The notes below the pieces were generated by a model. It saw only the letters and a program-made list of their open reading frames with translations, had not been told where the DNA came from and ran no database searches. The translations under genes and the position numbers were made by a program. This document shows positions 9,425-62,373 of a stretch of 64,000 nt of DNA, piece by piece (positions within the stretch are counted from its first letter, which is position 1; the number at the start of each line of letters is the position of its first letter). The stretch comes from Salipaludibacillus agaradhaerens (GTDB lineage: Bacteria > Bacillota > Bacilli > Bacillales > Salisediminibacteriaceae). The DNA lies in the NCBI RefSeq assembly GCF_002019735.1, contig NZ_KV917378.1, forward strand, positions 3,684,869 to 3,748,868. Direction: 5' to 3'.

Positions 9425-9730
9425 ATTATCTTTATTATTATTGGTTTAGGACTGCAAATCATTTTTATATTGTTAATCACACTATTCAACTTTCTAAGAG
9501 TATTTGATATAGACAATTATTCTGTTTATCCAGTAGCATTATTTGAACTCTTTATTGGTGTCGTAAGTTTATTTTGCGGTTTATACAGTCTAATTAAATT
9601 TAAAAGACCCTTACTTTCGGTTTTTGTTATTCTTTTTGGCCTGTTTATCCCACACTTAAGGGGCAGTAAAACCCCCACCTTAAAACGTAAGAAGGTCGAA
9701 AAGTTTAGGTGGGGGATAAACTGCCCCTAA
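9425..9730 (+). pseudogene. Small membrane-protein gene interrupted by a palindromic element
   Basis: From about 9425 the frame encodes two to three hydrophobic segments (IIIGLGLQIIFILLITLFNF, then VALFELFIGVVSLFCGLYSL and LLSVFVILFGLF). After that the last 27 codons (PHLRGSKTPT...) are encoded by the inserted element that begins at 9649. The first standard start codon is TTG 9470; a GAGGGGGAG lies just before 9425, where only ATT is available. If 9649-9801 is removed the frame stays open and adds ICFFFIFIYLLPEAGTPPVIPWL, ending at 9872, which completes a membrane helix. The original gene was therefore probably split by the insertion. Function unknown. Confidence 0.5.
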
Positions 9731-9801
9731 AGGTCCGATAAGTTAAACTAACAATCAGTGGGGATGAAGGAAAACCCCCACTGATTGAAGCTTAGCTTTA
9801 T
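9649..9801 (+). mobile_element. PATE-like palindromic element, family 1, copy A
   Basis: The 153-base element lies directly after TTTAT (9644-9648) and ends in TTTAT (9797-9801). It contains a long hairpin (GGGGCAGT and CCCCCACCT pairing with AGGTGGGGG and AACTGCCCC) and a second one (AATCAGTGGGG with CCCCACTGATT). Near-identical copies lie at 38040-38190 and 54611-54759; outside these boundaries the three loci are unrelated. It encodes no transposase. It looks like a non-autonomous IS200/IS605 derivative. Confidence 0.75.
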
Positions 9802-16618: not shown

Positions 16619-16750
16619 ATAAAACGCCTTCAATCAGTAAGTGTTTTCGTACTTATTCCCCTGATTGGTCGTTGAGTGAATCAAGACATTAGCGTGCGTT
16701 AGCTCTCCTCTCTATTGTGAGTCGGGAGTTTTACGGACGTTTATCTGTTG
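16619..16750 (-). mobile_element. PATE-like palindromic element, family 2, copy F
   Basis: Read on the minus strand it follows TTTAT (complement of 16751-16755) and ends in TTTAT (complement of 16619-16623). It shares CTCCCGACTCA, AATAGAGAGGAGAGCTAA and the CTGATTGAAGG...TTTAT end with copies D and E. Its right-end palindrome keeps AATCAG ... CTGATT pairing with an inner AAGT/ACTT stem, the same arrangement as family 1. Confidence 0.6.
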
Positions 16751-17228
16751 ATAAACCAGCACAAAAGAGTAAAAAATACGACTCCAGTGAGGTTTATCGC
16801 AGTCTGACAATCCACTTTGATGATACTTCGTAGGTATGAGTGGAAGGCAATTTCACGGAAAACGGCTGCGTGCATGGATTTGAGTAACATTTATCTCTTA
16901 TAAAATAGGATGCCGTAAAAAATTGGTTACTTTACCGACTTTTGGGATATCCCTATTTTTCTTAAATTTAACGGTTTGAGAAATGTACTTGTTAATTTTT
17001 GTGACCTGGTTATATCAAAATTACATTTCATAAATTTAGTATATAAAGAATATTGAAATTGATGGTTATAGAACCTTTAAATTAAATATGCTGGATGGTA
17101 GTTGAATATAATATTCATTAACTTATATTTGGATAACTCTTCCTAAAGGGTTAGTCGAAAAATAAGAGATTTTAGCACTACCAAAAAATAAATAGACAAA
17201 GGCTTTTAACAGGAATACCTTACTAGAA
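16751..17228. other. Gene-free stretch with remnants of a Bacillus-type interspersed repeat
   Basis: About 16770-16885 contains weak matches (ACGACTCC at the left, CGGAAAACGGCTGCGTGCATGG at the right, with gaps) to the GC-rich intergenic repeats common in Bacillaceae, heavily decayed. The remaining AT-rich part up to the padR stop shows no gene, RNA or terminator I can support. Confidence 0.3.
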
Positions 17229-22244: not shown

Positions 22245-22430
22245 AAGAATGGGGTAGAGGCGCGAAATTTATGAGTAATGATCAAGAGCTAGGACAGCTA
22301 TGAGGGGTCATGAAAGGAAATTTTGCCGAAGCATTTTATTTCGTCCAAAATAAAGGAGCTGGGGTTGCATTGAATAAGTGCAACACTGTCACTTTCGGGA
22401 AGACCGGAGTGGAGGACTACTTTTTACCTT
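22245..22430 (+). promoter_or_regulatory. Lysine riboswitch (L box)
   Basis: The conserved L-box core is present in order: GGTAGAGGCGCGA, ATGAGTAA, TGAAAGG, TTGCCGAAGCA, AGCTGGGGTTGCATTGAATAA in pieces, TGCAACACTGTCA and GGAGTGGAGGACTACT. The 5' GGTAG can pair with the 3' CTACT to close P1. A strong terminator follows at 22460, before the NhaC-family gene, so the arrangement predicts transcription attenuation when lysine is high. Confidence 0.9.
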
Positions 22431-33298: not shown

Positions 33299-33439
33299 GA
33301 ACCAAATGAATGAGATACCATGGATGTCAAAAAAGTAAGCTTAATAAAAGGTCTATGTGTGTCTTTTTCATAATGATATTTTTAAAGCAATAGCATGAAT
33401 AGTATGTAATAAAATTTTATTTAATATATGATGCTGGTG

Positions 33440-33557
33440 ATAAAACGAACCTTCAATCAGGGGGGATTGCGTTCTTCTCCCATTGGGACATTAACGTCCA
33501 TTATCTCCAGCCTACATAGCTCTCTTCTCTATTTTGAGGGTGGACGGTTTAAGGATG
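33440..33557 (-). mobile_element. PATE-like palindromic element, family 2, copy E
   Basis: Read on the minus strand the element follows TTTAT (complement of 33558-33562), has ACCCTCAAAATAGAGAAG and GAGCTA, and ends with the same 21-base right end as copy D (CTGATTGAAG ... TTTAT, complement of 33440-33444). It is non-coding and lies in the yutF-pgpA gap. Confidence 0.6.
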
Positions 33558-33778
33558 ATAAAAAGTGGATGAAATGTAAGACGGCGACGCTCAGAGGATG
33601 AAGCGTAGTCTGAGAAGCCACATTTGTTAGGGTTTACCGAACTTTAGCTGAAGACAAGCCTCGGAAAAGCGTCCGTTTGAAAAGGTCACAGTCACTATTC
33701 GAATAGTGACAGCTTAATTTGAGTTATGCACTAGAAAATATCATGCTGGTGCCATACGATAACTTTATAAAAATTGAT
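33558..33778. other. Decayed interspersed repeat and a 20-base palindrome
   Basis: 33575-33685 (GACGGCGACGCTC ... AGTCTGAGAAG ... CTGAAGACAAGCCTCGGAAAAGCG in pieces) looks like a worn copy of a GC-rich Bacillaceae intergenic repeat also seen at 46205-46320. A perfect palindrome, GTCACTATTC / GAATAGTGAC, lies at 33691-33710. No gene is seen. Confidence 0.35.
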
Positions 33779-37904: not shown

Positions 37905-38039
37905 ATCGAAACACTCCTTTCTTTACAACTATTATAATATCCTTTTTTAAAAAAATCCATGAAGATGATTTATTTTTCCTTAAATAAAAATATAAATACA
38001 GGTTATTGTAGTTAAAATACGTTTAAATTTAGGCTTTAT

Positions 38040-38190
38040 CCCACACTTAAGGGGCAGTAAAATCCCCACCTCAAAATTTAAGAAGATCGAAAAGTTTAGG
38101 TGGGGGTAAACTGCCCCTAAAGGTCCCATAAGCTAAATTAATAATCAGTGAGTATGAAGGAAATCCCCACTGATTGAAGCTTAGCTTTAT
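38040..38190 (+). mobile_element. PATE-like palindromic element, family 1, copy B
   Basis: The 151-base element starts right after TTTAT (38035-38039) and ends in TTTAT (38186-38190). Both hairpins are conserved (GGGGCAGT/AACTGCCCC outer stem; AATCAGTG...CACTGATT right stem, less perfect than in copy A). It lies 34 bases upstream of yuzD, so it replaced most of the native upstream region. The rest of the 320-base gap 37905-38224 is AT-rich. Confidence 0.75.
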
Positions 38191-54552: not shown

Positions 54553-54610
54553 TAGAGTAATCTCATCTAAGTTGTGTTGTCAACTACATTTTATATTGGT
54601 TTACATTTAT

Positions 54611-54759
54611 CCTACTCTTAAGGGGCAGTAAAACCCCCCGCCTCAAAACTTAAGAAGATTGAAAAGTTAAGTGGGGGATAAACTGCGCCTGTCCGATAAG
54701 TTAAACTAACAATCAGTGGGGATGAAGGAAAACTCCCACTGATTGAAGCTTAACTTTAT
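54611..54759 (+). mobile_element. PATE-like palindromic element, family 1, copy C
   Basis: The 149-base element follows TTTAT (54606-54610) and ends in TTTAT (54755-54759). The outer stem has partly decayed (GGGGCAGT against AACTGCGCC), and the AATCAGTGGGG / CCCACTGATT stem is retained. It sits between bioY and the rRNA promoters. From here to 55180 the sequence is AT-rich and gene-free. Confidence 0.72.
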
Positions 54760-55386: not shown

Positions 55387-55553
55387 TATAAAGTCGCTAA
55401 AAAACGACGGAATGATTTTGACCTTTGAAAACTAAACAAAAAGCCAAGCAAAGTGGGATATGAAAATATCCCGTCAAAGAAACAAAGCGTTGAGTGGAAA
55501 CACTCAACAACGCCAGACGAAAGTTTGGACATGATGTCAGAGACATCGAACTC

Positions 55554-57121
<1,568 letters not shown>

Positions 57122-57530
57122 AAGGAGCTATTAAGCTCAGCTTATTAAAACTTTGCTTTGGCTATTTTGTTTAGTTTTGAGAGGTTAAACTCTCAGATAG
57201 AAAAACTTACCCGTTGGGTAAGAATCGACCTTTGAAAACTGGATAACGAAAGACTGATAAATGACATCACCGGTTCACAATCGCTTGATTTAATCAAACG
57301 ATGAGAGAACCGAGTGTCTTAGAAAAAGGCCATTAAGACGCCTAAAACCGCCTTTTTAATAAAGGAAAGGGTTTAAGCCACCTGGTGATAAGCCAGAAGT
57401 GTGCTTAAACAAAGAGCATCAAAGAGATCGAGGAAGCAAGTGAGCGCAACACCGGAACGTACTGAGGTACGTGAGGATGGTGAGCGAACGCAGCTGCCGA
57501 CGCGCTCTGCCGATGATCTGCGGTTTAAGA
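57122..57530 (+). other. 16S-23S spacer without tRNA genes
   Basis: The 409-base spacer holds CTTTGAAAACTGGATAA (antitermination/processing), hairpins for RNase III type processing, and a GC-richer block at about 57425-57500 (GATCGAGGAAGCAAG ... ACGTGAGGATG ... GAGCGAACGCAGCTG). That block resembles the repeats inside the tRNA cluster. No tRNA is present here, unlike the Ile/Ala-containing spacers of some operons. Confidence 0.85.
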
Positions 57531-60468
<2,938 letters not shown>

Positions 60469-60550
60469 AAAGCAAGTCGTCTTTTCTCTAAGACATGATG
60501 TCCTATCAGTCCCGTTATCCAGTTTTGAAAGGTCGATAAGACCTTGATAT

Positions 60551-60668
60551 GTTCAGTGACAATCGCGGAGAGGTCACACCCGTTCCCATGCCGAACACGG
60601 TAGTTAAGCTCTCCAGCGCCGATGATAGTTGGGGGCTCTCCCCCTGTGAAAGTAGGACGTCGCTGAGC
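60551..60668 (+). rRNA. rrf: 5S ribosomal RNA
   Basis: The conserved loop sequence CCGAACACGG and the domain TTCCCATGCC are present, and the ends (TTCAGTGAC and GTCGCTGAG) can pair. It lies 82 bases after 23S. Confidence 0.95.
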
Positions 60669-60726
60669 ATATTATCTAAATATAAGCGTTTACATATTTG
60701 GAATGTTTATAAGAGGATGTTTATTT

Positions 60727-60802
60727 GGGGCCTTAGCTCAGCTGGGAGAGCGCCTGCTTTGCACGCAGGAGGTCAGCGGTTCGATCCCGCTAGGCTCCAC
60801 CA
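60727..60802 (+). tRNA. tRNA-Ala (TGC)
   Basis: Cloverleaf with acceptor stem GGGGCCT/AGGCTCC, T-loop TTCGATC and encoded CCA. The anticodon loop reads CTTTGCACG (anticodon TGC). It is the first tRNA after 5S. Confidence 0.95.
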
Positions 60803-60830
60803 TTATTATTTAAATAATCTGTTAAATTGT

Positions 60831-60907
60831 GGCGGTGTAGCTCAGCTGGCTAGAGCGTACGGTTCATACCCGTGAGGTCGGGGGTTCGATCCCCTCCGCC
60901 GCTACCA
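60831..60907 (+). tRNA. tRNA-Met (CAT)
   Basis: Acceptor GGCGGTG pairs (with G-U) with CGCCGCT; the anticodon loop is TTCATAC. The D-arm and T-arm fit elongator tRNA-Met rather than initiator. CCA is encoded. Confidence 0.93.
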
Positions 60908-60916
60908 TGAAATTTC

Positions 60917-61009
60917 GGAGGAATACCCAAGTCTGGCTGAAGGGATCGGTCTTGAAAACCGACAGGGGCTTCACGGCCCGCGGGGGTTCGAATCCCTCTT
61001 CCTCCGCCA
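60917..61009 (+). tRNA. tRNA-Ser (TGA)
   Basis: Long variable arm (AGGGGCTTCACGGCCCG region), acceptor GGAGGAA/TTCCTCC, anticodon TGA in CTTGAAA, CCA encoded; 93 bases. Confidence 0.95.
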
Positions 61010-61014
61010 TAAAA

Positions 61015-61090
61015 GGTCCCGTGGTGTAGCGGTTAACATGCCTGCCTGTCACGCAGGAGATCGCGGGTTCGATTCCCGTCGGGACCGCCA
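61015..61090 (+). tRNA. tRNA-Asp (GTC)
   Basis: Acceptor GGTCCCG/CGGGACC, anticodon GTC in CTGTCAC, CCA encoded. It is followed by the two spacer repeats. Confidence 0.95.
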
Positions 61091-61124
61091 TTTTTTAATG
61101 TTTTGTATTAGCTCATATTTTTTT

Positions 61125-61229
61125 GACGAGAAGCAAGAAGGTCAAGGAAGTGAGAGAAAGAATGACAGCGTATTTAGTATACGTGAAGGAATGAGAGAAC
61201 GAAGCTGACGAAGAAATTCGTAGCTTATC
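61125..61229 (+). repeat. tRNA-cluster spacer repeat, copy 1
   Basis: This matches 61241-61347 at nearly every base (GACGAGAAGCAAGAAGGTCA ... ATACGTGAAGGAATGAGAG ... TTCGTAGCTTATC). It contains hairpin motifs CGTATTTAGTATACG and ACGAAGAAATTCGT. A looser relative lies in the 16S-23S spacer. Confidence 0.8.
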
Positions 61230-61240
61230 ACTATTTTCTT

Positions 61241-61347
61241 GGCGAGAAGCAAGAAGGTCAAGGAAGCGAGAGAAAGAGTGACAGAGCGTATTTAGTATAC
61301 GTGAAGGAATGAGAGAACGAAGCTGACGAAGAAATTCGTAGCTTATC
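61241..61347 (+). repeat. tRNA-cluster spacer repeat, copy 2
   Basis: This is the tandem partner of 61125-61229 with a 116-base period; the main difference is two extra bases in GACAGAGCG. It ends just before tRNA-Tyr. The minus-strand ORF over the pair is spurious. Confidence 0.8.
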
Positions 61348-61360
61348 GACAAGAAAATTT

Positions 61361-61445
61361 GGAGGGGTAGCGAAGTGGCTAAACGCGGCGGACTGTAAAT
61401 CCGCTCCCTACGGGTTCGGGAGTTCGAATCTCTCCCCCTCCACCA
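61361..61445 (+). tRNA. tRNA-Tyr (GTA)
   Basis: Long variable arm (CTCCCTACGGGTTCGGGAG region), acceptor GGAGGGG/CCCCTCC, anticodon GTA in CTGTAAA, CCA encoded; 85 bases. Confidence 0.95.
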
Positions 61446-61449
61446 TCAC

Positions 61450-61523
61450 AGGGGTATAGTTTAATGGTAAAACGAAGGTCTCCAAAACCTTTGATGTGGG
61501 TTCGATTCCTACTACCCCTGCCA
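61450..61523 (+). tRNA. tRNA-Trp (CCA)
   Basis: Acceptor AGGGGTA/TACCCCT, anticodon CCA in CTCCAAA, 3' CCA encoded; four bases after tRNA-Tyr. Confidence 0.95.
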
Positions 61524-61533
61524 TCATTTTTAT

Positions 61534-61610
61534 GGCGGTTGTGGCGAAGTGGTTAACGCACCGGATTGTGGTTCCGGCATTCGTGGGTTCGATTCCCATC
61601 AGCCGCCCCA
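61534..61610 (+). tRNA. tRNA-His (GTG)
   Basis: The extra 5' G (G-1, 61534) opposite C73 is encoded, as required for histidyl-tRNA. The anticodon loop is TTGTGGT (GTG), CCA encoded. Confidence 0.95.
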
Positions 61611-61626
61611 TTAATTTAATCTTTAT

Positions 61627-61701
61627 AGGCCCATAGCCAAGCGGTAAGGCATCGGATTTTGATTCCGTGACGCGCAGGTTCGAATCCTGCTGGGCCTGCC
61701 A
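61627..61701 (+). tRNA. tRNA-Gln (TTG)
   Basis: Acceptor AGGCCCA/TGGGCCT, anticodon TTG in TTTTGAT, T-stem GCAGG/CCTGC, CCA encoded. Confidence 0.94.
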
Positions 61702-61710
61702 TTTTAATAT

Positions 61711-61785
61711 GCGGGAATAGCTCAGTGGTAGAGCACCACCTTGCCAAGGTGGGGGTCGCGGGTTCGAATCCCGTTTCCCGCTCCA
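61711..61785 (+). tRNA. tRNA-Gly (GCC)
   Basis: Acceptor GCGGGAA/TTCCCGC, anticodon GCC in TTGCCAA, CCA encoded; one base before tRNA-Arg. Confidence 0.95.
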
Positions 61786-61786
61786 T

Positions 61787-61863
61787 GCGCCCGTAGCTCA
61801 ATTGGATAGAGTGTCTGACTACGGATCAGAAGGTTAGGGGTTCGACTCCTCTCGGGCGCGCCA
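61787..61863 (+). tRNA. tRNA-Arg (ACG)
   Basis: Acceptor GCGCCCG/CGGGCGC, anticodon ACG in CTACGGA, where A34 is the target of TadA deamination. An AT-rich 84-base gap follows before the next tRNA. Confidence 0.95.
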
Positions 61864-61947
61864 TTTTAAATTTTCTAATTTGCTAAGTACATAAGCAGTC
61901 ATAACATTCTTCAAGGATATAATTCTAAAATCTAAATATAATCACAT

Positions 61948-62021
61948 GCGGGTGTAGTTTAGTGGTAAAACCTCAGCCTTCCAAGCTGATGACGAGGGTT
62001 CGATTCCCTTCACCCGCTCCA
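61948..62021 (+). tRNA. tRNA-Gly (TCC)
   Basis: Acceptor GCGGGTG/CACCCGC, anticodon TCC in CTTCCAA, CCA encoded. It is the second glycine isoacceptor in the cluster. Confidence 0.95.
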
Positions 62022-62037
62022 CTTTATTTTTCTTTGT

Positions 62038-62114
<77 letters not shown>

Positions 62115-62117
62115 TAT

Positions 62118-62192
62118 TCCACAGTAGCTCAGTGGTAGAGCAATCGGCTGTTAACCGATCGGTCGTAGGTTCGAATCCTACCTGTGGAGCCA
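62118..62192 (+). tRNA. tRNA-Asn (GTT)
   Basis: Acceptor TCCACAG/CTGTGGA, anticodon GTT in CTGTTAA, CCA encoded. Confidence 0.95.
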
Positions 62193-62196
62193 TTAA

Positions 62197-62287
62197 GGAG
62201 AAGTACCCAAGTGGCTGAAGGGGCGCCCCTGCTAAGGGTGTAGGTCGTGTAAACGGCGCGAGGGTTCAAATCCCTCCTTCTCCGCCA
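62197..62287 (+). tRNA. tRNA-Ser (GCT)
   Basis: Long variable arm, acceptor GGAGAAG/CTTCTCC, anticodon GCT in CTGCTAA, CCA encoded; 91 bases. Confidence 0.95.
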
Positions 62288-62298
62288 CTTTTTTGTTT

Positions 62299-62373
62299 GG
62301 CCCGTTGGTCAAGTGGTTAAGACACCGCCCTTTCACGGCGGTAACACGGGTTCGAATCCCGTACGGGTCACCA
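62299..62373 (+). tRNA. tRNA-Glu (TTC)
   Basis: Acceptor GGCCCGT/ACGGGTC, anticodon TTC in CTTTCAC, CCA encoded. It is the last tRNA of the cluster. Confidence 0.95.

Follow-up and report, generated by a model that had tools for sequence, protein, structure and literature searches.

A family of folded, TTTAT-bounded repeats in Salipaludibacillus agaradhaerens and other Bacillales, probably non-autonomous elements moved as single-stranded DNA

Three similar palindromic stretches of about 150 bases lie far apart in a 64,000-nucleotide piece of the Salipaludibacillus agaradhaerens genome (contig NZ_KV917378.1, positions 3,684,869 to 3,748,868; hereafter the window). What kind of repeat is this, and what moved it? 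A sequence-only reading had compared the copies with IS200/IS605 elements and their non-autonomous derivatives (PATEs). Our main reading, to which we give a probability of about 0.6, is a non-autonomous, palindrome-ended mobile repeat that is moved as single-stranded DNA by an HUH/Y1-like transposase acting in trans.

The three copies were located where they had first been placed, and the start given at 9649 immediately follows the left TTTAT. When aligned with their flanks, similarity began at the left TTTAT and stopped at the right TTTAT, and the sequences outside were unrelated, as claimed. The description of the insides as near-identical was slightly generous, with identities to the first copy (9644–9801) of ~89–91%. 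The element comprises ~154 bases and the net insertion is 154 bp. Its boundaries are direct TTTAT/TTTAT without terminal inverted repeats. Alignment and folding bore out the TTTAT on both sides and the subterminal hairpins, and none of the three copies contains an ORF. The folding stability was far from random both as RNA (z = -8.2) and as DNA (z = -8.4), and none of 200 shuffles was equally stable. No family matched the element in an Rfam search at the gathering threshold. A covariance model of the wider family scored the three window copies at 117–164 bits and also found three older, diverged relatives in the window. The features were as follows.

9644..9801, strand +: full-length subfamily I copy, bounded by TTTAT 9644–9648 and TTTAT 9797–9801; covariance model 163.5 bits
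9649..9746, strand +: left structured domain, a two-tier hairpin with outer arms GGGGCAGT/ACTGCCCC and inner arms CCCCCACC/GGTGGGGG
9751..9786, strand +: right subterminal hairpin, CAATCAGTGGGG...CCCCCACTGATTG
38035..38190, strand +: full-length subfamily I copy; covariance model 130.9 bits; the same site in the sister genome G004 holds a ~55-bp core-deletion derivative
54606..54759, strand +: full-length subfamily I copy; covariance model 117 bits; element absent in G004
16619..16755, strand -: diverged subfamily II relative, TTTATCA..AGATAA..CGTCCGT...; 55.7 bits
33440..33573, strand -: diverged subfamily II relative; 36.6 bits
2625..2735, strand +: diverged, internally deleted subfamily II relative with a TTTTAT end; 34.6 bits

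The own genome (G000) is a single contig of 4,319,439 bases. The genome-wide consensus search suggested earlier showed that the family is real: subfamily I has 23 near-full-length and ~20 partial copies. The covariance model gave at least 150 matches in this genome, and ~32 in the 400-kb stretch around the window after removal of palindromic double matches. The older subfamily II, which also occurs in the genus, reads TTTATCACAGATAAGCGTCCGT...ACGGACGCTAATG...CAATCAGTGGGAG...CTCCCACTGATTGAAGGTTCGTTTTAT. The stems of the two subfamilies differ in sequence, with a pairing scheme common to both. An unassigned dispersed repeat at ~33550–33730 adjoins one window copy of subfamily II (region 33343–33729) and has several matches in G004.

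The copies were strongly oriented with respect to replication. The origin (~2.9 Mb) and the terminus (~0.55 Mb) of the own genome were placed by GC skew. The top strand lay on the leading-strand sequence, and hence on the lagging-strand template, in 21 of 22 unambiguous full copies. The same orientation was found for 54 of the 56 full copies of the congener G006 (p = 4e-14; 0.8 Mb with measured skew), and in the set of 66 full copies replication was followed by 64. Between genes, the two strands have TTTAT at about the same frequency. In gaps where both flanking genes oppose replication, all elements (6/6) still followed replication, meaning that their orientation is not set by transcription. 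A weaker trend in the same direction was seen for subfamily II within the 400 kb of the own genome (~20 of 27 by hand count). According to the published IS200/IS605 mechanism, hairpins should lie near the ends, the left end should be preceded by a fixed target, and insertion should be biased towards the lagging-strand template (PMC6006769; PMC7290912); the second of these papers found no such bias in its own organism. The orientation bias observed here, which the sequence-only reading had not noted, is what single-strand IS200/IS605 transposition predicts.

On the main reading, the movement would proceed as follows. The top strand would fold into the left and right hairpins during the single-stranded phase of the lagging-strand template. 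A trans-acting single-strand transposase (HUH/Y1-like) would recognise these hairpins and make its cuts at the left TTTAT and behind the right one. The excised strand would then be inserted 3' of a further TTTAT that lies on a lagging-strand template. The transposase would since have been lost from the own genome and its sister, and the copies would consequently be decaying and suffering repeat-mediated core deletions.

Several results count against an HUH/Y1-like enzyme: the own genome and G004 have no Y1_Tnp or TnpB, no transposase with matching ends was found, the element is not associated with Y1 genes, and its left domain and right hairpin loop exceed the hairpins of studied IS200/IS605 members in size. 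A profile search detected neither Y1_Tnp nor TnpB in the own genome, and the sister G004 had none either. TnpB (PF07282) was also without a match in G006, and no RAYT gene was found in the carriers tested. Around relatives, 120 loci with lengths of up to 8 kb contained no Y1 gene. Transposase genes with the same ends had been proposed as a check; they were found neither at the Y1_Tnp loci of the genus nor at the 30 best Y1 loci of the 150 order genomes. Y1_Tnp was missing from ~9 of 44 carriers vs 17 of 106 non-carriers (Fisher p = 0.64, 150 genomes), with two of the nine carriers counted because they did not appear among the matches. Within the genus, abundant IS605-type genes occur in genomes that do not have the element.

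Two candidates for the enzyme or its source were rejected. G006 has one IS200 type with four intact copies (loci L092, L098, L103 and L108) and fragments, and three of the four intact copies lie 3' of TTTAT. Its hairpins and right end differ from those of the repeat, and its ends, ...CACCAGTTCACACTGGTGGTTTTGATT, are unrelated. Two of these IS200 copies directly adjoin a TTTAT repeat, and locus L113 is a decayed copy of the same IS200 between separate repeats. An autonomous parent was sought as pairs of left and right ends more than 260 bp apart. No ORF-bearing version was found in ~2 Mb of carrier genome, and the long intervals that were read consisted of ordinary host genes between separate copies.

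The age of the copies bears on the missing helper. Those of G006 are star-like, with 95.9% identity to their own consensus and no pair at 99%. The burst therefore appears to be over, which makes loss of the helper, whose class we infer, a fair explanation. The IS200/IS605 reading as a whole was supported in part: the fixed TTTAT, the hairpins, the precise sites and the strand bias all fit the mechanism, and the search for a helper with these ends was negative.

A site-specific recombinase, or other single-strand DNA machinery unrelated to Y1 transposases, would agree with the lack of a Y1 association and with two of three carrier congeners having no Y1 gene. The bcr1 literature suggests a 'site-specific recombination-like mechanism' for that repeat. 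No such enzyme was identified, though, and both the anatomy and the strand bias are already in keeping with the HUH class. The missing Y1 association is also explained by helper loss, because the copies are old. We regard this alternative as unlikely, yet worth keeping in mind.

The insertion sites allow a further alternative to be weighed. The region around the window is syntenic in the own genome, G004 and G006, and alleles with and without the element were compared across 400 kb. Reading at base level was limited to the clear cases, as the remaining sites were too diverged. At one site, G006 has actcagt-TTTAT-E-TTTAT-aatttcat (E, element) and the own genome and G004 have acttagt-TTTAA-aatttcat. 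At another, agaaatag-TTTAT...TTTAT-cag in G006 corresponds to gc-TTAT-cag in the other two genomes. At a third, the own gcttttt-TTTAT...ATTTAT-acaaaa corresponds to gcttttt-TTAAT-acaaaa in G006. Insertion is thus precise, and the empty form retains one TTTAT-like pentamer; the earlier proposal to compare empty sites in sisters was answered by precise junctions. At window site 54606, left-flank homology in G004 ends at the element boundary. At site 9644, homology in G004 resumes only within the right end of the element, and a short derivative is present there.

TTTAT stood on both sides of 56 of the 66 full copies. The ten deviant copies never had the same pentamer variant on both sides, meaning that a variable duplicated target was not seen. 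Head-to-tail copies had one TTTAT in common (L140, L223). Mixed arrays were also present, with a subfamily I copy placed after II, or a II copy after I, at the right-end TTTAT of the preceding copy.

A MITE of a DDE transposase with a 5-bp duplication and a strict TTTAT target would also produce TTTAT on both sides and a single copy in the empty site. The absence of target duplication, as claimed earlier, is argued for by the unmatched deviants and the shared TTTAT of the arrays; the empty sites by themselves are the same under a strict duplication of a fixed 5-bp target. The same observations weaken a duplication model with an absolutely fixed target. In addition, terminal inverted repeats are absent, the target is fixed rather than variable, and DDE elements are not expected to follow the replication strand regardless of transcription. 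We consider a DDE origin improbable.

The stems were then examined for covariation. Among 18 diverse members with 40 pairs, 95.1% of the cells were paired and 19 of the 40 pairs had changes on both sides. None of 500 shuffles reached this value, and sliding the partner by 1–3 columns reduced pairing to 30–49%. A first MAFFT alignment that included outliers showed no left stem; restricted and curated alignments did. The two stem domains are thus kept by compensatory changes across genera. The mismatches in the left stems of dispersed copies were G.T in 37 and A.C in 36 cases, and the corresponding numbers for tRNA stems of the same genomes were 18 and 0; the tRNA control was small, the Bacillales set was chosen by its fixed right end, and only left stems were compared. 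As there is no wobble preference, the single copies are not being preserved as RNAs. What counts for the replicating lineage is the structure, most simply in the form of DNA. The proposed guide-RNA role of the right end found no support, as there is no TnpB in the three carrier congeners, no Rfam match and no wobble preference.

A conserved structured RNA (regulatory, terminator or guide RNA) that is kept for its function and is mobile only incidentally would agree with the strong covariation, with all copies being intergenic (none of the 66 full copies lies inside an ORF) and with bcr repeats reported as transcribed within UTRs in B. cereus (PMC3446304), but it is highly improbable given that orientation follows replication even against both neighbouring genes, that the mismatches are unlike those of tRNA stems, that copies decay star-like with recurring 55-bp core deletions, and that Rfam and TnpB searches were negative.

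Decay and nesting were also seen. The 55-bp derivative was found at many sites and consists of the left ~35 and the right ~34 query bases, which overlap in a shared repeat; it probably arose by deletion between AAAACCCCCAC direct repeats. In other genera, nested modules occurred in the element, and one of them is the Rfam Bacillaceae-1 RNA (RF01690), in antisense. Variants of 200–490 bp were considered as ancestors and rejected: several were the element with nested modules, and RF01690 was present in three of six loci checked. The three antisense cases within TTTAT repeats are L217:3446-3512, L144:5873-5939 and L150:7045-7111. This suggests that the 'sRNA' Bacillaceae-1 RNA is itself an interspersed mobile repeat.

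The family extends well beyond S. agaradhaerens. In the genus (eight species), G000, G004 and G006 each had at least 150 model matches and the other five had none; G006 carries ~56 full copies within 0.8 Mb. In a sample of 150 genomes of the order, 44 were carriers (43 of 149 without the own genome), distributed over 30 of 84 genera. Among the matches listed were Paenibacillus, Lysinibacillus, Niallia, Cytobacillus, Peribacillus, Neobacillus, Rummeliibacillus, Terrilactibacillus, Sporosarcina, Psychrobacillus, Heyndrickxia and others. This looks like a large, order-wide and apparently undescribed repeat family, found in numerous soil bacteria allied to Bacillus. Its closest known counterparts are the bcr1 repeats, compared by description, and the haloarchaeal PATEs.

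Plasmids and phages were rejected as vectors: the phage record collection contained no match to the element, and plasmids had few copies. One copy, on a plasmid of Pseudalkalibacillus hwajinpoensis, was 81–84% identical to family consensus sequences. A right-end match was seen in a Klebsiella-labelled record (L324; CP079755.1, Klebsiella grimontii plasmid pNY3A), which may be wrongly labelled there and stem from a plasmid of Bacillales.

In the literature, bcr1 of the B. cereus group is MITE-like, folded, intergenic, high-copy and mainly chromosomal, and its mobility is tied to a TTTAT motif (PMC6542083; PMC3446304; PMC2267715). By description, the present element resembles it in size (~150–160 bp), copy number, intergenic location and TTTAT. 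In contrast, bcr1 is described there as specific to the B. cereus group and the present family occurs in many genera; the replication-strand bias found here does not appear in the bcr1 descriptions consulted. A plasmid of Bacillus arachidis, a member of the B. cereus group, had one weak, degenerate match (L385:39795-39924; 27.5 bits, E = 0.011) with the run GTAAGACTCCCACCTCAAAA in common with the family and no TTTAT boundaries. This degenerate relative is a possible bridge to bcr1. We further hold it conceivable, as a tentative minority view, that a Bacillales-wide superfamily of structured TTTAT-specific repeats moves on the lagging-strand template by a non-Y1 (IS200/IS605/RAYT) enzyme or a host process, with bcr1 maybe a local branch.

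The haloarchaeal PATEs are transposase-free, without terminal inverted repeats, and have near-terminal palindromes; they show ~52-bp derivatives from repeat-mediated core deletions, often carry other small repeats nested in them, and have their helper only as pseudogenes in one strain (PMC3119063). The present element is likewise too short for a transposase, with palindromes near both ends, core deletions (55 vs 52 bp) and nesting, and it adds insertion 3' of a fixed pentanucleotide (TTTAT) and the lagging-strand-template bias to the likeness. The PATE palindromes match IS605-type elements of haloarchaea (PMC3119063), whereas no such parent was found here, and the left domain is a two-tier structure of ~98 nt. 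With the IS200/IS605 elements IS608 and ISDra2, the element shares a fixed target of four or five nucleotides on the 5' side of the left end, the subterminal hairpins and the strand bias (PMC6006769). It differs in having neither tnpA nor tnpB, identical TTTAT at both boundaries and no parental element found. The hairpins there are 20–25 nt (PMC6006769), and here the left domain has ~98 nt and the right loop is larger. REP/RAYT systems also have dispersed intergenic palindromes and a replication-linked single-strand mobility model; however, the present element has no GTAG tag, its unit is much larger and carriers tested lack a RAYT gene. In short, the element works like a PATE and looks like bcr1, and we file it as neither.

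Repeats of a type known from a single pathogen group thus become an apparently order-wide family of mobile hairpin elements, for which target, boundaries, strand and structure are measurable. It raises a sharp question: which enzyme moved hundreds of copies and yet is absent from the carrier genomes? High-copy genomes such as G006, and donor plasmids with TTTAT, are ready material for identifying it.

Some minor observations were made. In the long variants L165, L167, L251 and L217, a stretch in reverse orientation (e.g. GATAAAGTGAAACTT in L165) is the complement of the right-end tail with its TTTAT; the arrangement resembles a head-to-head insertion of a second right end. Apart from the repeats, the window holds a lysine riboswitch (22247–22427) and one rRNA operon with 15 tRNA genes after it (55553–62373).
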